DNA of 64,000 bases from positions 1-64,000 of the forward strand of contig PGXU01000001.1 in NCBI GenBank assembly GCA_002839335.1, in the 5' to 3' direction. Below the pieces are notes generated by a model that saw nothing but the letters and a program-made list of their open reading frames with translations, made no database searches and was not told the origin of the DNA. This document shows positions 25,445 through 34,117 of this stretch, one piece after another (position 1 is the first letter of the stretch; each line of letters starts with the position of its first letter). Origin of the DNA: Spirochaetae bacterium HGW-Spirochaetae-4. GTDB taxonomy: Bacteria > Spirochaetota > Spirochaetia > Sphaerochaetales > Sphaerochaetaceae. Position numbers and translations under genes: made by a program.

Positions 25445-25629
25445 GACGATGCATACATTACTTGTAGAACATCATTCGTAGAGGTTCTCTTCCGGTCCTT
25501 GGCCTTGTATGATAGTGGTATTTTTGGATGAACTGAAAGCAGTTATAGGCAACTTTCCACCACAGGAAGTATTTTCGACTGAACCAATATACAAAATGGT
25601 TGAACAACATGAAATATCCAACAATAACA

Positions 25630-25658
25630 GATACAAGAAGGTAGAAACAGTTTATAAT
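25630..25658 (+). promoter_or_regulatory. Promoter of the GGDEF/HD-GYP gene; possibly leaderless
   Basis: A consensus TATAAT (25653-25658) lies exactly 6 bases before the ATG at 25665, with no Shine-Dalgarno site. The -35 region (GATACA, 25630-25635, 17-base spacing) is weak. Confidence 0.45.
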
Positions 25659-25664
25659 GGTTAC

Positions 25665-27851
25665 ATGAAAAAGCCCAATGGGAATAATAAACAGTCCAGA
25701 GAAACCTTCAAACAAGAAGTTCGAGAAGAAAAGGCAACAAAGGATTGGGATTATTACCGCAACTTGATAGAAGCAAGCCTTGATTCCCTCGTAACGATAA
25801 AACCGGATGGAATAATCACAGATATCAATTCTGCAACCGAAATGGCTTTTGGACTTCCAAGAGAAAGGATAATCGGTACGGATTTCCCAGGATACTTCAC
25901 CGAGCCGGAAAAGGCTCGTATCGGATGTAAACAAGTTTTTGATAATGGCAAGGTCGTGAATCATGAACTCTATCTCAAACGTACCGATAGATCATCCCTT
26001 CCTGTTTCCTGCAATGCATCCGTATATACAGACAAGGAATGTCAGGTAATTGGAGCGTTAATTGTTACACGGGATATTTCAGCAGCAAAAAAATATGAAG
26101 ACGAGCTTACGAATATTGGGAATGGTCTCAAATTGCATGTTCAACAAAAAACCGCGGAATTGGTCATCGCCCAAAAAAAACTTGCTTTCCAAAATGAAGA
26201 GAAGGATATGCGGGCTGCAGAACTCCTCATTGCCAACACGGAGCTTGTGTTTCAAAACCAAGAAAAAGATAAGCGGGCGGCCGAGCTTGTCCTGGCAAAC
26301 AAGGAGCTTCTCTTCCAGACCGGAGAAAAGGCGGACCGTGCAGCCGAATTGGTGATAGCAAACAAAGAGTTGGCATTTCAAAATGTTGAGAAGGATATGC
26401 GTGCTGCAGAACTCCTCATAGCCAATTCAGAGCTAGTATTTCAAAACCAAGAAAAGGATAAGCGGGCAGCAGAGCTCGTCCTGGCAAACAAGGAGCTCCT
26501 CTTCCAGACAGGTGAGAAGGCTGACCGGGCGGCTGAATTGGTGATAGCAAACAAGGAACTGGAGTTCCAGAATGAAGAGAAGGATATGCGGGCAGCAGAA
26601 CTACTCATAGCCAATACCGAACTAGTCTATCAAAATGAAGAAAAGGATAAACGGGCGGCCGAGCTCGTCCTGGCAAACAAGGAGCTCCTCTTCCAGACAG
26701 GTGAGAAGGCGGATCGGGCAGCTGAATTGGTGATAGCAAACAAAGAACTGGCGTTTCAGAACGAAGAGAAGGATATGCGGGCAGTGGAACTGCAAAATGC
26801 AAATGCAGAACTCATCTTTCAAAATGAAGAGATCGCCTATATTAGTCACCACGACTTCTTAACGGGACTGCATAATAGGATTTACTTCGAAGAGGAGAAA
26901 AAACGACTGGATATCCAAAGTCAATTGCCCATTTCGATTATTGTGGGAGATATCAACGGTTTGAAATTGGTGAATGATGGCTTCGGACATGCAAAAGGTG
27001 ACGAATTGCTCATCATAATATCCAAAATATTGAAAGACTGCTGTAGGGAGGAAGATGTTGTCTCTAGGATCGGAGGAGATGAGTTTGGGATTATTCTTCC
27101 CCGAACAGACAGCAAGCAAGCTCAATTGCTATGTGGTCGCATATCTGATGCCTGTAATGGATATGCGTTGCATAAGGGCTTGATCTATCTCAGTATTTCT
27201 TTAGGTTATGCAACAAAGACTAAAAGCACTGAGACGATGGATACCATTGTGATGACCGCTGAAGAAAATATGTCCACACACAAGTTATTGGAAAGGAAGA
27301 GCGTTCATAGCTCAATAATTGCATCAATAAAAGCAATAATGTTTGAGAAGAGTCAAGAAACAGAAGAACATGCAGATAGAATGGTACAATTGTCGAAGCT
27401 GGTGGGTAAAGCCATGGGTCTGACAGAGAGACAGCTGAATGAACTTGAGCTTTTATCCACTCTGCATGACATAGGCAAAATGGGCGTAAGTGCTGAGATT
27501 CTATCAAAGCCGGGTAAGCTGAGCGACAGGGAGTGGGTTGAGATACGAAAGCATCCTGAGATTGGTTTTAGAATTGCACAAGCAACATCCGAGCTTATTC
27601 CTATTGCAGAATATATCCTTTACCATCACGAGAGGTGGGATGGCAAGGGATATCCTGAAGGTTTGATTGGAGATAAAATACCTCTTCTCTCTCGTATTGT
27701 TGCTATCGTCGATGCGTTCGACGCCATGACCAACGATAGGGCCTATCGTTCGGCAATGACAAAAAACGAGGCTATAGAAGAAATCAGAAGAAATTCCGGA
27801 ACCCAATTCGATCCAGATATTTCCAAGGTATTCATACAACAAGTGAGCTAG
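25665..27851 (+). CDS. PAS-coiled-coil-GGDEF-HD-GYP cyclic-di-GMP protein
   Basis: 728 residues from the ATG at 25665. The frame is open to 25509, but the extra 52 residues look non-coding and the chosen ATG lies 6 bases after a TATAAT. Order: PAS domain (about 28-140), a rod of ten 21-residue repeats (179-388), GGDEF domain (389-540) and HD-GYP domain (about 545-725). The GGDEF motif is intact (470-474) with an RxxD inhibitory site five residues before it (REED), so c-di-GMP synthesis is possible. HDIGK (601-605) and HHERWDGKGYP (654-664) are intact, so hydrolysis is possible too. No membrane segment is seen, so it is a soluble sensor. It is transcribed alone. Confidence 0.85.
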   Translation: MKKPNGNNKQSRETFKQEVREEKATKDWDYYRNLIEASLDSLVTIKPDGIITDINSATEMAFGLPRERIIGTDFPGYFTEPEKARIGCKQVFDNGKVVNHELYLKRTDRSSLPVSCNASVYTDKECQVIGALIVTRDISAAKKYEDELTNIGNGLKLHVQQKTAELVIAQKKLAFQNEEKDMRAAELLIANTELVFQNQEKDKRAAELVLANKELLFQTGEKADRAAELVIANKELAFQNVEKDMRAAELLIANSELVFQNQEKDKRAAELVLANKELLFQTGEKADRAAELVIANKELEFQNEEKDMRAAELLIANTELVYQNEEKDKRAAELVLANKELLFQTGEKADRAAELVIANKELAFQNEEKDMRAVELQNANAELIFQNEEIAYISHHDFLTGLHNRIYFEEEKKRLDIQSQLPISIIVGDINGLKLVNDGFGHAKGDELLIIISKILKDCCREEDVVSRIGGDEFGIILPRTDSKQAQLLCGRISDACNGYALHKGLIYLSISLGYATKTKSTETMDTIVMTAEENMSTHKLLERKSVHSSIIASIKAIMFEKSQETEEHADRMVQLSKLVGKAMGLTERQLNELELLSTLHDIGKMGVSAEILSKPGKLSDREWVEIRKHPEIGFRIAQATSELIPIAEYILYHHERWDGKGYPEGLIGDKIPLLSRIVAIVDAFDAMTNDRAYRSAMTKNEAIEEIRRNSGTQFDPDISKVFIQQVS
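26199..26828 (+). repeat. Ten 63-bp repeats (21-residue heptad units) with 189-bp superperiod
   Basis: Ten in-frame units of 21 codons read EKDMRAAELLIANTELVFQ, EKDKRAAELVLANKELLFQ or EKADRAAELVIANKELAFQ with small changes. Three unit types recur in fixed order three times, followed by one more of the first type. This gives a second period of 63 residues (189 bp). Twenty-one is three heptads, so the region should form a continuous coiled coil of about 30 nm between PAS and GGDEF domains. Confidence 0.9.
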
Positions 27852-27965
27852 TCCGTAGAACTTCGCACTGATGGACCAAACGAGAGTACCATACGCAATA
27901 AAACAACAAAAATTCCTCTGCTAAGACAAAATATGGTATGGTTAAGACCTGAGAGAGTAATCCCC

Positions 27966-28322
27966 ATGAATGATATGCAAGAACTGACCGAACAGATTCT
28001 CAAGTTCCGTGATGCGCGCGATTGGAAGCAATTCCACAATTCCAAGGACATGGCGATCTCGCTGGTATTGGAAGCGACCGAATTCCTGGAACATTTCCAA
28101 TGGAAAACTGAAGCCGAAGTCCTGGACCATATCAAGGACAATCGTGCACAGCTCGGCGATGAACTGGCCGATATCCTGTACTGGGTCCTCCTGTTGAGCC
28201 ATGACATGGATGTGGATATCAAAGCCTCCTTCATGGCGAAGATGGAGAAGAATGCAAGGAAATATCCCGTTGATAAAGCAAAGGGAACCCATAAGAAATA
28301 CACCGAACTGCACGATATATAG
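27966..28322 (+). CDS. MazG-like nucleotide pyrophosphohydrolase
   Basis: 118 residues from the ATG at 27966 (GAGAGAG upstream). The MazG fold is indicated by LVLEATEFLEHFQW (first E-x2-E type metal motif) and LGDELADILYWVLLLSHDMDV (second E-x-x-D motif). Such all-alpha enzymes hydrolyse NTPs or dNTPs to NMP and pyrophosphate, removing non-canonical nucleotides. The length fits the short single-domain form. It is followed after 25 bases by the DUF2075 helicase gene with its own strong ribosome site, so the two probably form one transcript. Confidence 0.88.
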   Translation: MNDMQELTEQILKFRDARDWKQFHNSKDMAISLVLEATEFLEHFQWKTEAEVLDHIKDNRAQLGDELADILYWVLLLSHDMDVDIKASFMAKMEKNARKYPVDKAKGTHKKYTELHDI

Positions 28323-28347
28323 TTGGTAGACGACTGGAGGTCCCGCC

Positions 28348-30255
28348 TTGCTGGTATACCTTGGAGAGAAAAGCCAATTTCTCGAGGATGTGTTGAACGG
28401 ATACATCGACAACACGATCGAACAGCAAATGCGTTCGGTCTTGAGCCGTTCAGTCGGCATAAGCGAGAAGCGGTCCTGGCAACACTCCATGATGTACATG
28501 TCCCAAATCCTGCATGATCCCGATATCCCCATGGATGCCGGTATAGCGATCGAGTTCTCGATCCCACAAAGCGCCAAACGGGTCGATTTCATCATTTCCG
28601 GTTTGGATGACGAGCAGAAGCACCATGCGGTGATTGTCGAGTTGAAGCAGTGGAGCGAAGTGCAGCCGGTCGAGAACATCGAGCAACTTATCAATGTTGG
28701 AACCGCGAAAATGACCCAGCGGGTACGGACCCGCTTTCAGGGAACACTCCAGACGACCGTACATCCCGCATACCAGGCCTTCAGCTACAAGACGTTGATC
28801 AGTGATTTCAATGCCAATGTCCAGGATGTCCCCATTCATCTCAATCCCTGCGCCTATCTGCATAATTATGAGAATACCGATGCGAACGATCCGTTGTTCC
28901 TCCCCCATTTCAAGGAGTTCATCGACCAGGCTCCCGTGTTTTGTCGGGGTGATGCAAAAAAGCTGCAACAGTTTATCAAGCAATTCATCAAGACTGGAGA
29001 CAAGAAGCAGACACTCGTCTATATCGAAGAGGGTGATATCCGGCCATCGAAGAGCTTGCAGGATGCCTTGGCCGCTATGTTGCGGGGTAAGCGGGAGTTC
29101 ATGCTTATCGATGAGCAGGAGGTCGTGTTCCAACGTATTCTCGCCAGTGCGAAGTTGTGCAATGAGGATCGGCGCAAACGGGTGTTCATCGTCAAAGGAG
29201 GCCCCGGAACGGGCAAGACGGTAGTGGCGATCAATTTGCTGGTCCAGCTGATCCGAACCAGAATCTATTGTGCCTATGTGACAAAGAACAGTGCCCCGCG
29301 CAATGTGTTTGAGGTGAAGCTGGTCGAGGGCGCCATGAAGAAGCGGGATATCTCGAATCTGTTCAAGAGTTCCGGAGCGTTTGTCGATGCCCAGGAGAAT
29401 GTGTTTGGAGCCTTGCTTGTCGATGAGGCGCACCGCTTGAACAAGGAGTCCCGGTTTGGACCCGTGGTACGCGGCGAGAACCAGATCAAGGAGATCGTGA
29501 AGGCATCACATCTATCTGTGTTCTTCATCGATGAAGCCCAGCGGGTTACGGCTCAAGACTACGGCAGCATACCCGCGATCAAGCAATGGGCCAACTATTT
29601 CCATGCGGAAGTCTATGAGGACGAGCTGTCCAGCCAATTCAGGTGCAATGGCTCCGACGGATATCTTGCCTGGCTGGACCATGTCCTGCGTATCCGGGTT
29701 ACCGCCAACACCACGTTGGAAGGAATCGATTACGACTTCAGGGTTGTGGATACTCCGGGTGAGCTTGAACGTCTGATCCGGGAGAAGAATGAAATTGACG
29801 GCAAAGCCCGGCTGTTGGCGGGGTATTGTTGGGAGTGGGAGACCAAGAGGCATCCAGAGAAAGCAGTGGATGTCACAATCGGTGATTTTGCCATGCCCTG
29901 GAACCTGAGCGGGGACAGGACCTTCGCAATCTCGGAAGGCTCGATCGATCAGGTTGGGTGCATACACACCACCCAGGGGTTGGAATTCAGCCATGTCGGC
30001 GTGATTATCGGCGAGGATCTCAAGTTTGAACAGGGCAGGGTAGTGACCGATTATACCAAGCGGGCAAAATCCGACAAATCGCTCAACGGCTTGATCGGGC
30101 CGGCCCGGAAGGGCAATCTGGAAGCCCTGTCTGTTATCGACAGCATCATCAGAAACACCTACCGCACCCTCATGACCCGTGGTATGCGAGGCTGCTATGT
30201 GTATTGTGTTGATGCTGGTTTGGGGGAGTATCTCAGAGGGGTCGTCAACCGGTGA
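28348..30255 (+). CDS. DUF2075 (schlafen-like) ATPase/helicase
   Basis: 635 residues starting at a TTG with a GGAGG site 7 bases upstream. The N-terminal 200 residues contain a nuclease-like DFIISGLDDEQKHHAVIVELKQW segment, which resembles a PD-(D/E)xK core (D...E-x-K). The ATPase part has Walker A GGPGTGKT (284-291), a Walker B region LLVDEAHRLN (about 355-364), a DEAQRV motif and the helicase-like CIHTTQGLEFSHVGVIIGED. This is the DUF2075 family (DNA/RNA helicase-like). Its end overlaps the convergent helicase gene by 11 bases. Pairing with MazG suggests a nucleic-acid protective or defence role. Confidence 0.85.
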   Translation: MLVYLGEKSQFLEDVLNGYIDNTIEQQMRSVLSRSVGISEKRSWQHSMMYMSQILHDPDIPMDAGIAIEFSIPQSAKRVDFIISGLDDEQKHHAVIVELKQWSEVQPVENIEQLINVGTAKMTQRVRTRFQGTLQTTVHPAYQAFSYKTLISDFNANVQDVPIHLNPCAYLHNYENTDANDPLFLPHFKEFIDQAPVFCRGDAKKLQQFIKQFIKTGDKKQTLVYIEEGDIRPSKSLQDALAAMLRGKREFMLIDEQEVVFQRILASAKLCNEDRRKRVFIVKGGPGTGKTVVAINLLVQLIRTRIYCAYVTKNSAPRNVFEVKLVEGAMKKRDISNLFKSSGAFVDAQENVFGALLVDEAHRLNKESRFGPVVRGENQIKEIVKASHLSVFFIDEAQRVTAQDYGSIPAIKQWANYFHAEVYEDELSSQFRCNGSDGYLAWLDHVLRIRVTANTTLEGIDYDFRVVDTPGELERLIREKNEIDGKARLLAGYCWEWETKRHPEKAVDVTIGDFAMPWNLSGDRTFAISEGSIDQVGCIHTTQGLEFSHVGVIIGEDLKFEQGRVVTDYTKRAKSDKSLNGLIGPARKGNLEALSVIDSIIRNTYRTLMTRGMRGCYVYCVDAGLGEYLRGVVNR

Positions 30256-33166
30256 TATAGTCGTACAGATCGGCGGGAACGGGTGTGTGCATGGCGAATT
30301 CCATGGCTACGACAGGGAGTTCCTTGCTTTTTCCGGTCTCCTTCTTCCCTTGCGTATTCGAGAGAAATTCCATTGATCCCATGTAGTAAAAGGCGATTCC
30401 CTCATCATTATTTTTCTGAACGAACAGAAGCTTCCTCATGGGACCCTCTTCATTCCTGATGGCTTTGGGTTCGCTGGAACCCAACTTCACACTATGTCTG
30501 GTTTCCCAAGCGAACTCTTCAGGAGATTTAAAATGATCGTGATAATTGATGCTTGGATCGATTTCCTCGATATTCTTATGATAAGTGACGAATATTGGAC
30601 ACGTCATGGAACGTTTATCAACCTTATATCCGTATATCGTGGAACTTTCATCCTTATCCCAGTTGAGCAATCTACAGACATCCTGTCGTGAGTATTTATG
30701 GTAGAGCATCAGATCGTCGGGCATACGGTGCGGTAGCACATTGGTACGATATTCCTTATTCCCCAGGTTCAGAATATCGGTGATTTCTTGTCGATATGGT
30801 TCTTTTTCCAGGAGAAGCTTGAATCGTTCTGTTGGTACGAGCTTGTCGCCGTCCCAAGAACAGTAGACGATGTTACCGAAAGATTTTCTCATTGCTGCTT
30901 GGTAAAAGCCATCTTGTAGTATCTTGACCGCTGAGTGTAACGATTTTTCTTGCGGGGTGAAGTTGTATTTTTCTTCAATTCTGATAGCCAGCTGCTCCAT
31001 GGTAAGACTTCCATCGCCAGCTATAAGAGCCTCGACAATCTCCGCTTCATATGGACGGATCCCCGGTGCGATTACTTTGGAGAAGAAATCCAAGCTTCGC
31101 AGATGATCTGCCGAAAGTTCAGGGACGAAGGGTTTTTCCACCTTGGATTTGAATTGGTAATAGTTCTTGCTATGGTCGATAAACAATAGTGGTGATACCG
31201 CGCCATGATCTACGAAATCCATCATGGTTGGGATTCCGCCGATTTTCATCTTGACCCGATTATACTCATCTTTCAGGAATTTTAGGGTTCTGAAGGAAAC
31301 GTCGTTGATGGCCTTATAGATGCGTTCCTTCGCGATCCTATCGAAATTGACTGTTGAAACCCCATGGATTCCGAGACTTCCCGAACTTACCAGCTTTCTA
31401 AGGGTGTCCTTCTTGAAGGACGTGTCCCCAAACAGTGCGACTGGAATCATGTAGTTGTTGGTGTAGTTCCCGATGAAATCGATGACAGTGAGGAAATCCT
31501 TGCCTTGGTATTTTCGCAATCCGCGTCCCATTTGTTGAACAAAGACGATTGCCGATTGGGTAGGGCGTAGCATGATAATCTGGTTCAGCGAGGGGATGTC
31601 GATTCCTTCGTTGAGAATATCGACGGCGATCAGGTAATCGAGAGCATTGGGACCATCTGCCAATTCCAGTCGATCAAAAGCCGCGTCCCTCGCTTTGTCG
31701 TCGTCTGCACCACTGAGTGCGAGTGTACGCAGCCCCAATAAGTTGAGTTTTTCAGATAGTATTTTTCCTTCTTCATTTCGAGAAACGAAGATCAAGCCTC
31801 TGCGTCTGGTATCTGGTATAGAATACCGGTTGATGGCATCCTGGATATTCCTTACCCATTCATCGCTTGTGATTTTTGAGAACTGTGACAAATCATCATA
31901 TTGGACTTCGTCGACCACCAGGTCTGAGATTCCATAATAGTGGAAAGGACACAGCAGGTCGGCTTCCAGGGCTTGGTTGAGTCTGATCTCATAGGCGATA
32001 TTATTGTCGAACAGGCGGTAGATATCATAGCCGTCGGTCCGTTCCGGTGTAGCTGTCATCCCTAACAGGAACTTTGGGGTGAAATAAGATAGGACCTTTT
32101 CATAGGAAGCCGCTCCAGCCCGATGAACTTCATCAACAACGATATAGTCGAATTCATCAGGGGCGAATGAACGTAATACTTCATCTTTACTGAGTGTTTG
32201 GATCATGGAGAATAGATAGACTGCGGACTTGTCGTATTCAGTTCCTCCACCAATAAGAGAGCAGGATATCGAGTTGCCGAGAATCCGCTTGAATTTTCGC
32301 ATCGATTCGGAGGCAATCTGTTGACGATGGACGATGAAGAGAAATCGTCGTGGAGCGAAGCGTTGGACATCGAAAGCGCTCAGAAAAGTCTTACCTGAAC
32401 CGGTTGCGGAGACGAGGATCGCCTTGTTCTCACCGCGCTGCCGCAGGCGTTGCAATGATGCGAGAGCATCGCGTTGCATGGTATTGGCGACAATATGCTC
32501 TCGACTAAAGGATTCTTCCTCATCGGGAAGTACAGTCGAGGCTGGTTGGGATTGCCGATGCATGGAAGCTCGGATCCGTTCATAATGCAACAACCAGGCA
32601 GGACTCACCTCGTGGGCCATATCCCATGCTGCGTTGAATTCCGTACGGACTTTTCGGAGCAAATCTCCCGCATGTAGCGAGACCAGTCTGATATTCCATT
32701 CCCGATTGGTCGCCAGTGCTTCGTGGGTGAGATTCGAGCTGCCAATCATGAGGGATGCGTAATCACTCTTTCCGTAATAAAACAAGTAGCCCTTTGCATG
32801 GAATGGTTTTCCGCTGTACACCCTTAGCTCGATATTGTCGAACCGTTCCCGGATGAGGGCAAGTGCCTTTGGATCGGTAAACCCGAGATAATCCGAAGTG
32901 AGTATCTTCCCGGTGATTCCTTTTGCCTTCGCCTCGTAGAGTGCCTGAAGCAGCATCATTATGCCACCGCTGGTTATGAATGCAACAGAGAACTCGAAGT
33001 ACGAGCAATTTTCCAATTCTCGGCAGAGGGTATGGAGCACCTTGCTTCTTGGTGGGTCGTTGAGCACGAGACTCGGACGGTACAACTCGTTGGACGGCTG
33101 GGTGTGGTCGATGAATCCGGTATGCAGGCTAGGAGGCAGCAACTCCTCGAATCGTTCGGTTCCCAT
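30245..33166 (-). CDS. PLD nuclease-DEAH helicase-DUF3427 protein
   Basis: 973 residues from the ATG at 33166, one base after the NUDIX stop; a longer start 12 codons upstream would overlap that gene. Order: a phospholipase-D-like nuclease domain with HAKGYLFYYGKSDYASLMIGSSNLT (about 108-132), a superfamily 2 helicase (Walker A SATGSGKT near 252, DEVH box near 340, ATPERTDG, QMGRGLRKYQGK), and a long C-terminal DUF3427 region. Members are large DNA- or RNA-directed motor nucleases, frequent in defence islands and often found with or fused to NUDIX. It forms a two-gene operon with the NUDIX gene. Confidence 0.88.
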   Translation of the reverse strand: MGTERFEELLPPSLHTGFIDHTQPSNELYRPSLVLNDPPRSKVLHTLCRELENCSYFEFSVAFITSGGIMMLLQALYEAKAKGITGKILTSDYLGFTDPKALALIRERFDNIELRVYSGKPFHAKGYLFYYGKSDYASLMIGSSNLTHEALATNREWNIRLVSLHAGDLLRKVRTEFNAAWDMAHEVSPAWLLHYERIRASMHRQSQPASTVLPDEEESFSREHIVANTMQRDALASLQRLRQRGENKAILVSATGSGKTFLSAFDVQRFAPRRFLFIVHRQQIASESMRKFKRILGNSISCSLIGGGTEYDKSAVYLFSMIQTLSKDEVLRSFAPDEFDYIVVDEVHRAGAASYEKVLSYFTPKFLLGMTATPERTDGYDIYRLFDNNIAYEIRLNQALEADLLCPFHYYGISDLVVDEVQYDDLSQFSKITSDEWVRNIQDAINRYSIPDTRRRGLIFVSRNEEGKILSEKLNLLGLRTLALSGADDDKARDAAFDRLELADGPNALDYLIAVDILNEGIDIPSLNQIIMLRPTQSAIVFVQQMGRGLRKYQGKDFLTVIDFIGNYTNNYMIPVALFGDTSFKKDTLRKLVSSGSLGIHGVSTVNFDRIAKERIYKAINDVSFRTLKFLKDEYNRVKMKIGGIPTMMDFVDHGAVSPLLFIDHSKNYYQFKSKVEKPFVPELSADHLRSLDFFSKVIAPGIRPYEAEIVEALIAGDGSLTMEQLAIRIEEKYNFTPQEKSLHSAVKILQDGFYQAAMRKSFGNIVYCSWDGDKLVPTERFKLLLEKEPYRQEITDILNLGNKEYRTNVLPHRMPDDLMLYHKYSRQDVCRLLNWDKDESSTIYGYKVDKRSMTCPIFVTYHKNIEEIDPSINYHDHFKSPEEFAWETRHSVKLGSSEPKAIRNEEGPMRKLLFVQKNNDEGIAFYYMGSMEFLSNTQGKKETGKSKELPVVAMEFAMHTPVPADLYDYITG

Positions 33167-33167
33167 C

Positions 33168-33563
33168 CTAATTTCCCAACATCCGAGCGATTGCATCCAC
33201 AATAGGAATATCCGCAGCTGCCCAGTCGACTGAATGGAGTTCTTCTACCGGGAGCCAACGGCTGTCGACGTGTTCACTTATCTCCAGGGTGCCATCGGTT
33301 ACTGTACATTGGTAGGCATCCATAGTGAGATGAAATGTTTGGTATTGATGTTCCACGGTCATGAGATACCGGTCCACTACGATTGTTACCGACAGCTCTT
33401 CCATGATTTCCCGAACGATTGCTGCTTCACCAGTCTCTCCTTGTTCGATCTTTCCTCCGGGGAATTCCCATTTGAGGGCAAGCTCACCAGCATCCTTGCG
33501 TTTCGCGGCAAATACTTTTTCATTCTCAATGATGATTGCAGCAACGACGTGGATACGTTTCAT
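33168..33563 (-). CDS. NUDIX hydrolase, MutT-like
   Basis: 131 residues with a complete Nudix box (residues 36-58: GG, five residues on a Glu, then REIMEE), and a MutT-like start (HVVAAIIIENEKVFAAKR, WEFPGGKIE). MutT-type enzymes hydrolyse 8-oxo-dGTP and related nucleotides. GAGGGG lies 11 bases before the ATG and TAATAC further up may be the -10 box. Its stop is one base from the ATG of the PLD/DEAH/DUF3427 gene, so both are translated together. Repair of the nucleotide pool or processing of nuclease products are both plausible. Confidence 0.9.
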   Translation of the reverse strand: MKRIHVVAAIIIENEKVFAAKRKDAGELALKWEFPGGKIEQGETGEAAIVREIMEELSVTIVVDRYLMTVEHQYQTFHLTMDAYQCTVTDGTLEISEHVDSRWLPVEELHSVDWAAADIPIVDAIARMLGN

Positions 33564-33716: not shown

Positions 33717-34117
33717 ATGATGAGTAAAGAAACAACGGCAAAACGTACATACGGATATTCTCCGAACTATGCTGTTGCACCAGGCGAAACTTTGAGTGAA
33801 GTAATCGAAAGTCTCTGTATGACACAGAAAGAATTTGCTACGAAGACCGGACTGACAGAACAGACCATTATTCGCATTCTGAAAGGTGCCCAACCAATAA
33901 CCTTCGAAACGGCAAACAGACTTGAGATGGTGACCGGGATTCCAGCTAAGATATGGAACAAGCTAGAGAAGCAGTACTGCGAAGAATTAAACAAAATATA
34001 GCAAAAGAGAAACTTGTGCTTTGGCAGAATTGGTTGAAGGATATTCCAATACTTGAACTTAAATCACAGGGAGCAATTTCTCAAGAATCAGATTCAGCGA
34101 GTTTCGTTGGAGTATGA
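33717..34117 (+). pseudogene. HigA-like XRE antitoxin gene, frameshifted and truncated
   Basis: The first 94 residues are a HigA-type XRE domain (YSPNYAVAPGETLSEVIES, MTQKEFATKTGLTEQTII, NRLEMVTGIPAKIWNKLEKQYCEEL). The frame then stops at TAG after the doublet ATATA. Removing the two bases TA restores a reading frame encoding AKEKLVLWQNWLKDIPILEL, the normal continuation of this family, which then ends at 34115-34117. Full-length relatives have an ImmA/IrrE-type protease part that is missing here. No toxin gene is adjacent. Confidence 0.75.

Follow-up and report, generated by a model that had tools for sequence, protein, structure and literature searches.

Two convergent gene pairs in a Spirochaetota genome, each joining a nuclease-motor protein to a predicted cytosine-nucleotide pyrophosphatase

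The window analysed here comprises 64,000 nucleotides (positions 1-64,000, forward strand) of contig PGXU01000001.1 from Spirochaetae bacterium HGW-Spirochaetae-4 (assembly GCA_002839335.1). In it, two co-directional gene pairs converge tail to tail: a MazG-like pyrophosphatase (27966-28322) and a DUF2075 nuclease-helicase (28348-30255) on the forward strand, and a homologue of the restriction enzyme SauUSI (30245-33202) with a NUDIX pyrophosphohydrolase (33168-33563) on the reverse strand. We give an even chance to the reading that these are two defence modules, separable but built alike, in which a nuclease-motor protein is accompanied by a pyrophosphatase acting on a modified cytosine nucleotide. 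The SauUSI homologue is the known part of this arrangement and MazG-DUF2075 the uncharacterised one, and it is this proposed common logic that would join them. An original prediction, made from the sequence alone, had described two bicistronic units whose 3' ends overlap by 11 bases, which is what we find at 30245-30255, between the DUF2075 and SauUSI-homologue genes; its view that each unit combines a nuclease-motor protein with a pyrophosphohydrolase agrees with the Pfam assignments (MazG-like and SLFN-g3_helicase in one; NUDIX_4 and PLDc_2/ResIII/DUF3427 in the other), and its anti-invader design is one we share.

The SauUSI homologue and its NUDIX neighbour

Pfam recognises PLDc_2, ResIII, Helicase_C and DUF3427 (270 bits) domains in the larger reverse-strand protein. 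The SauUSI structure (PDB 7clg) matches its residues 24-984 with E=4.5e-213, and the PADLOC model mREase_IV matches it with 728 bits. The HxK motif of the PLD domain is retained, aligned with H119 and K121 of SauUSI. In the SRA reader, or target recognition domain (30245-30703, reverse strand), four of the five residues named around the flipped 5-methylcytosine (5mC) in the SauUSI mechanism paper (PMC7913695) are identical (Y831, F841, D858 and W868), and the fifth, I842, is a valine. By homology, we assign the protein to the SauUSI-type type IV restriction enzymes, with a PLD nuclease, a superfamily 2 (SF2) ATPase, a coupler and an SRA reader, an identity that the original prediction had missed; the nuclease assignment is firm, and the enzyme would depend on 5mC or 5-hydroxymethylcytosine (5hmC), the DNA substrates of SauUSI (PMC7913695). 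No match to the C5-cytosine methyltransferase family (PF00145) was found in its own genome (99.9% complete), while 10 of 14 control genomes carry one. The lack of such a methyltransferase in the host is as a 5mC-dependent enzyme requires, unless the host's own sites are spared. As annotated, the protein has 985 residues, a TTG start and a 35-base overlap with the NUDIX gene, but an in-frame ATG at 33166 (codon 13), which leaves no overlap, is the likely start.

The NUDIX protein (NUDIX_4, 76 bits) corresponds to the PADLOC candidate PDC-S07 (168 bits). Of the SauUSI homologues that bear SRA, 52 of 61 have a NUDIX gene next to them; among those lacking SRA, 1 of 15 does (Fisher p=1.5e-8, with no correction for kinship). 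The NUDIX gene lies downstream and co-directional in 30 cases, upstream and co-directional in 16, and opposed in 8; the tree shows 17 changes of arrangement and 6 of presence. That adjacency has been kept through repeated relocation argues for function. The linkage extends to Staphylococcus aureus, where an intact SauUSI (98% identical to 7clg) begins 4 bases after a NUDIX gene (L243:3610-6871); the same NUDIX gene is also annotated beside S. aureus SauUSI in the record of a plasmid. This NUDIX protein is identical or nearly so to PDB 5x1x, deposited as 'Mutator mutT protein', and the unrecognised partner of SauUSI may thus already have a structure.

At two loci (L042:4633-7178 and L090:12197-14727), a nuclease-helicase of the PADLOC candidate PDC-S41 is immediately followed by a SauUSI-type NUDIX gene, adjacent to or near a MazG-DUF2075 pair. 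A partner swap, in which NUDIX (PDC-S07) would join this second Schlafen-group-3 helicase, was considered and set aside, as it was seen in just 2 of 5 full-length loci of this kind.

The DUF2075 nuclease-helicase and its MazG neighbour

The 635-residue forward-strand protein matches PF09848 (307 bits), now named SLFN-g3_helicase and formerly DUF2075. Its superfamily 1 (SF1) helicase domain (residues 277-622; 29176-30213, forward strand) has a GGPGTGK Walker A and a DEAHR Walker B motif. N-terminal to it, E69, D80, E98-x-K100 and Q143-xxx-Y147 are invariant across 62 homologues, a motif set that we take to be the RecB/Cas4-type PD-(D/E)xK pattern. The AlphaFold model (pLDDT 85) places in this core (residues 38-175; 28459-28872, forward strand) a helix at 38-55, strands at 65-69, 80-86 and 92-100, a helix at 140-154 and a strand at 164-175, so that motifs and modelled structure agree on the PD-(D/E)xK core that had been suspected from the sequence. 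A fold search with the model returned the SF1 helicases FBH1, UvrD and SLFN11 as closest, in matches that span the helicase part (147-635) and are therefore uninformative on relatives of the nuclease. In the Pfam scan the group-3 helicase is the sole Schlafen match, and in place of a match to the Schlafen RNase core the N-terminus shows the PD-(D/E)xK motifs. With a firm nuclease assignment, the protein is a fusion of a RecB-like PD-(D/E)xK nuclease with an SF1 helicase of Schlafen group 3.

The gene upstream of it encodes a 118-residue MazG-like pyrophosphatase (PF12643, 68 bits) that belongs to the DCTPP1/RS21-C6 type, with a further in-frame ATG upstream at 27933. MazG is adjacent, upstream or downstream, in 49 of 80 DUF2075 loci, with 16 changes of presence on the tree, and is retained where the nuclease domain of the DUF2075 protein is GIY-YIG and not PD-(D/E)xK. 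At one MazG-less locus (L072:11963-12300), the DUF2075 gene is followed by a protein of MazG-superfamily appearance (PRA-PH-like), possibly a replacement for MazG as partner. On a Lactobacillus amylolyticus plasmid (L191:810-3405), a (deoxy)nucleoside triphosphate pyrophosphohydrolase gene adjoins one for a DUF262 protein of the GmrSD-like type IV family, a hint that pyrophosphatase pairing may reach other modification-dependent enzymes.

Separability of the two pairs

The four genes had been proposed to form one system, which does not hold as an obligate arrangement. Among 296 Spirochaetota genomes, the DUF2075 protein occurs in 10 and the SauUSI homologue in 26, and only the present genome has both, against 0.9 expected; congeners carry single pairs. 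In one congener (G891), the NUDIX-SauUSI pair is found at 91% DNA identity, and the segment corresponding to 27874-30209, which holds MazG and all but the last ~14 codons of DUF2075, is missing. These codons remain, and a 5-base microhomology (TGATG) marks the ends of the segment. The remnant and the junction therefore indicate a deletion in this congener and rule out that MazG-DUF2075 was recently inserted into a site that had been empty. A second congener (G224) has MazG-DUF2075 at a different locus, without SauUSI, and a NUDIX gene beside an SRA remnant.

An association between the modules, which the original prediction also implied, is thus not seen beyond chance within Spirochaetota, but it is seen in Bacillota and on plasmids. 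A single co-directional operon of NUDIX, SauUSI, MazG and DUF2075 occurs three times: in Solobacterium (L044), on a mobilizable Lactiplantibacillus (L. plantarum) plasmid (L155) and, in a GIY-YIG form, in a further Bacillota genome (G472; L169). In Pseudobutyrivibrio (L034), the two pairs lie within 8 kb of each other. Among the 80 DUF2075 loci, 3 have an SRA-bearing SauUSI within 10 kb where 0.05 would be expected, a figure that assumes, by our own estimate, ~0.12 SRA-bearing SauUSI copies per 3-Mb genome. The two pairs are separable, yet stand side by side more often than chance would have it. On a fecal contig filed as phage (MT836409.1; L241:3459-8710), genes for a SauUSI-like protein, MazG and GIY-YIG/DUF2075 follow one another, and NUDIX is absent from the run.

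The explanation that survives best beside ours, and to which we give only slightly less than an even chance, is placement in a defence island, where the two modules would be adjacent without mutual cooperation; it is compatible with our reading of each pair. Separability within the genus, a co-occurrence in Spirochaetota not beyond chance and the position of relatives near other defence genes on plasmids all fit it. It accounts less well for the excess of SRA-bearing SauUSI near DUF2075, for the recurrent single operon and for the lack of any other defence family recurring among the 116 sampled neighbours, nor does it explain why linkage inside each pair survives many rearrangements.

Likely substrates of the two pyrophosphatases

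In a quick tree (131 columns), the NUDIX protein of the window falls within a clade of support 98 that holds Bacteroides 3GWY, an enzyme with a kcat/Km of 4.8e6 for 5-Me-dCTP, the 5-methyl form of deoxycytidine triphosphate (dCTP), and 4.4e6 for 5-hydroxymethyl-dCTP (PMC5158307). SauUSI restricts the two bases that these nucleotides carry. At the position of MutT N119, 49 of 51 NUDIX sequences have an Asp, as does NudG, which is named together with DCTPP1 as a 5-methyl-dCTP hydrolase (PMC10742078). The best PDB relatives of the MazG protein are 4qgp and dCTP pyrophosphatase 1 (DCTPP1), which prefers 5-methyl-dCTP, with a lower Km than for dCTP (PMC4491611). The MazG of the window retains the DCTPP1 pocket residues W47, H51, E63, E66, W73, E95 and D98, all of which except W73 are retained in 59 of 59 MazG sequences, and the DCTPP1 pocket of this set includes the FQW motif. 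Judged by their families, both of which hydrolyse 5-methyl-dCTP, the two small enzymes would act on dCTP, above all on its 5-modified forms; of unrelated folds, they likely share a substrate, each beside a nuclease-motor protein, and this is the parallel to which the original prediction had pointed.

The family evidence points to modified dCTP rather than to the nucleotide depletion that the original prediction had in mind. In such a depletion defence, the pyrophosphatases would destroy canonical dCTP or other deoxynucleotides on infection and so halt phage replication, while the nucleases cut DNA independently. Plain dCTP is indeed a substrate of DCTPP1 (PMC4491611) and NudG (PMC10742078), and a machine-learning survey (PMC13092281) includes MazG and other domains that act on nucleotides in its list of predicted defence domains. 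We nevertheless regard depletion as unlikely: no sensor or regulator is linked, 3GWY, the closest measured NUDIX, is reported to hydrolyse 5-substituted cytidine triphosphates efficiently (PMC5158307), and the NUDIX linkage tracks the SRA-bearing SauUSI homologues and is absent beside nearly all SRA-less ones. More improbable still is oxidative house-cleaning, with NUDIX as a MutT-like 8-oxo-dGTPase and MazG as a general NTP cleaner limiting nuclease- or repair-tied damage or mutation, for although the NUDIX protein reaches 88 bits with the MutT model (below cut-off) and some relatives carry it without SauUSI, the Asp at N119 and the clade shared with a 5-methyl-dCTPase disfavour a plain MutT, and the pocket of the MazG proteins is that of DCTPP1.

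Proposed mechanism

In the first module, by homology to SauUSI, the SRA domain would read 5mC or 5hmC, the SF2 motor would translocate and the dimeric PLD nuclease would cut; in the second, the RecB-like nuclease and Schlafen-group-3 helicase, with the DCTPP1-type MazG, would respond to modified DNA as well. NUDIX and MazG would hydrolyse 5-modified dCTP, so that host DNA stays without modified cytosine and the cell is protected from its own enzymes. During infection by a cytosine-modifying phage, the pyrophosphatase would also drain the modified precursor and starve the phage. This suggests that cells pair the cutting of modified DNA with the exclusion of modified letters from DNA. If NUDIX does remove 5-methyl- and 5-hydroxymethyl-dCTP, this would explain both how cells that restrict modified cytosine spare themselves and how they fight cytosine-replacing phages. 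We hold more tentatively, at somewhat under an even chance, that modification-dependent restriction enzymes generally come with a pyrophosphatase cognate to the same modified nucleotide, giving immunity at two levels without self-attack, and that MazG-DUF2075 is a second such family.

Several points weigh against this reading. The correlation between SRA and NUDIX is not significant after kinship correction, because SRA changed only three times on the tree. Nine of the 61 SRA-bearing SauUSI homologues have no adjacent NUDIX gene and 31 of 80 DUF2075 genes no adjacent MazG, so that neither pyrophosphatase is obligatory in cis, and some relatives retain NUDIX without SauUSI. The NUDIX of S. aureus and NudG fall outside the supported clade of 3GWY, and of the DCTPP1 residues, H38 is not retained (isoleucine in the MazG of the window) and Y102 is a tryptophan there. 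The nucleotide role of both small enzymes is deduced from family membership, and the reading of modified DNA by DUF2075 is a supposition.

Genomic context

The four-gene block lies, as had been noted, at the border of AT-rich DNA, with G+C falling from ~48% to 38% immediately to its right. There, a HigA-like helix-turn-helix open reading frame (33717-34001) scores 46.3 bits against a family cut-off of 47.7; the region to 34119 holds a possible continuation in another frame, and it is plausible that the gene is broken. To the left of the block, a PAS-GGDEF-HD protein (25509-27851) has tandem coiled-coil units of ~31 residues (ERAAELVIANKELAFQNEEKDM...) within 26150-26830. Aligned to congener G891, they match in many shifted registers, which suggests that the number of units can vary.

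Comparison with known systems

A main obstacle to the transfer of genes into S. aureus is SauUSI, and the NUDIX gene beside it has seemingly been overlooked. The homologue described here resembles it in full-length homology, PLD HxK motif, SF2 ATPase and SRA 5mC cage, and in S. aureus, too, a NUDIX gene lies directly upstream. The 2021 mechanism paper does not mention this partner (PMC7913695), and in the window a MazG-DUF2075 module also adjoins the enzyme. Our literature search, which did not extend to the original 2011 SauUSI paper, found no text joining type IV restriction with 5-methyl-dCTP hydrolysis.

For DUF2075 the literature search returned mentions in passing only, in five papers, and the predicted role of its MazG neighbour would offer a first functional handle on these widespread, unstudied nuclease-helicases. 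Known defence families match the DUF2075 protein weakly and in its helicase part (PADLOC PDC-S41, 52 bits; Nhi, 41 bits; AbiO), and PADLOC lists its candidates PDC-S07 (NUDIX) and PDC-S41 (Schlafen-group-3 helicase) as separate entries. Among the small enzymes, 3GWY shares a supported clade with SauUSI-linked NUDIX members at up to 47% identity. The MazG protein resembles DCTPP1/RS21-C6 in its MazG-like fold, its pocket residues and a C-terminal KYT(D/E)L motif, and differs from it in the two pocket changes given above, in being bacterial and in its linkage to a nuclease-helicase.

The closest functional analogy is a mirror image. Phage dCTPases of the T4 gp56 kind remove plain dCTP for the phage and are, like the enzymes considered here, pyrophosphatases that decide which cytosine nucleotide enters DNA; in the two pairs of the window, it is predicted to be modified dCTP that is removed, for the host.
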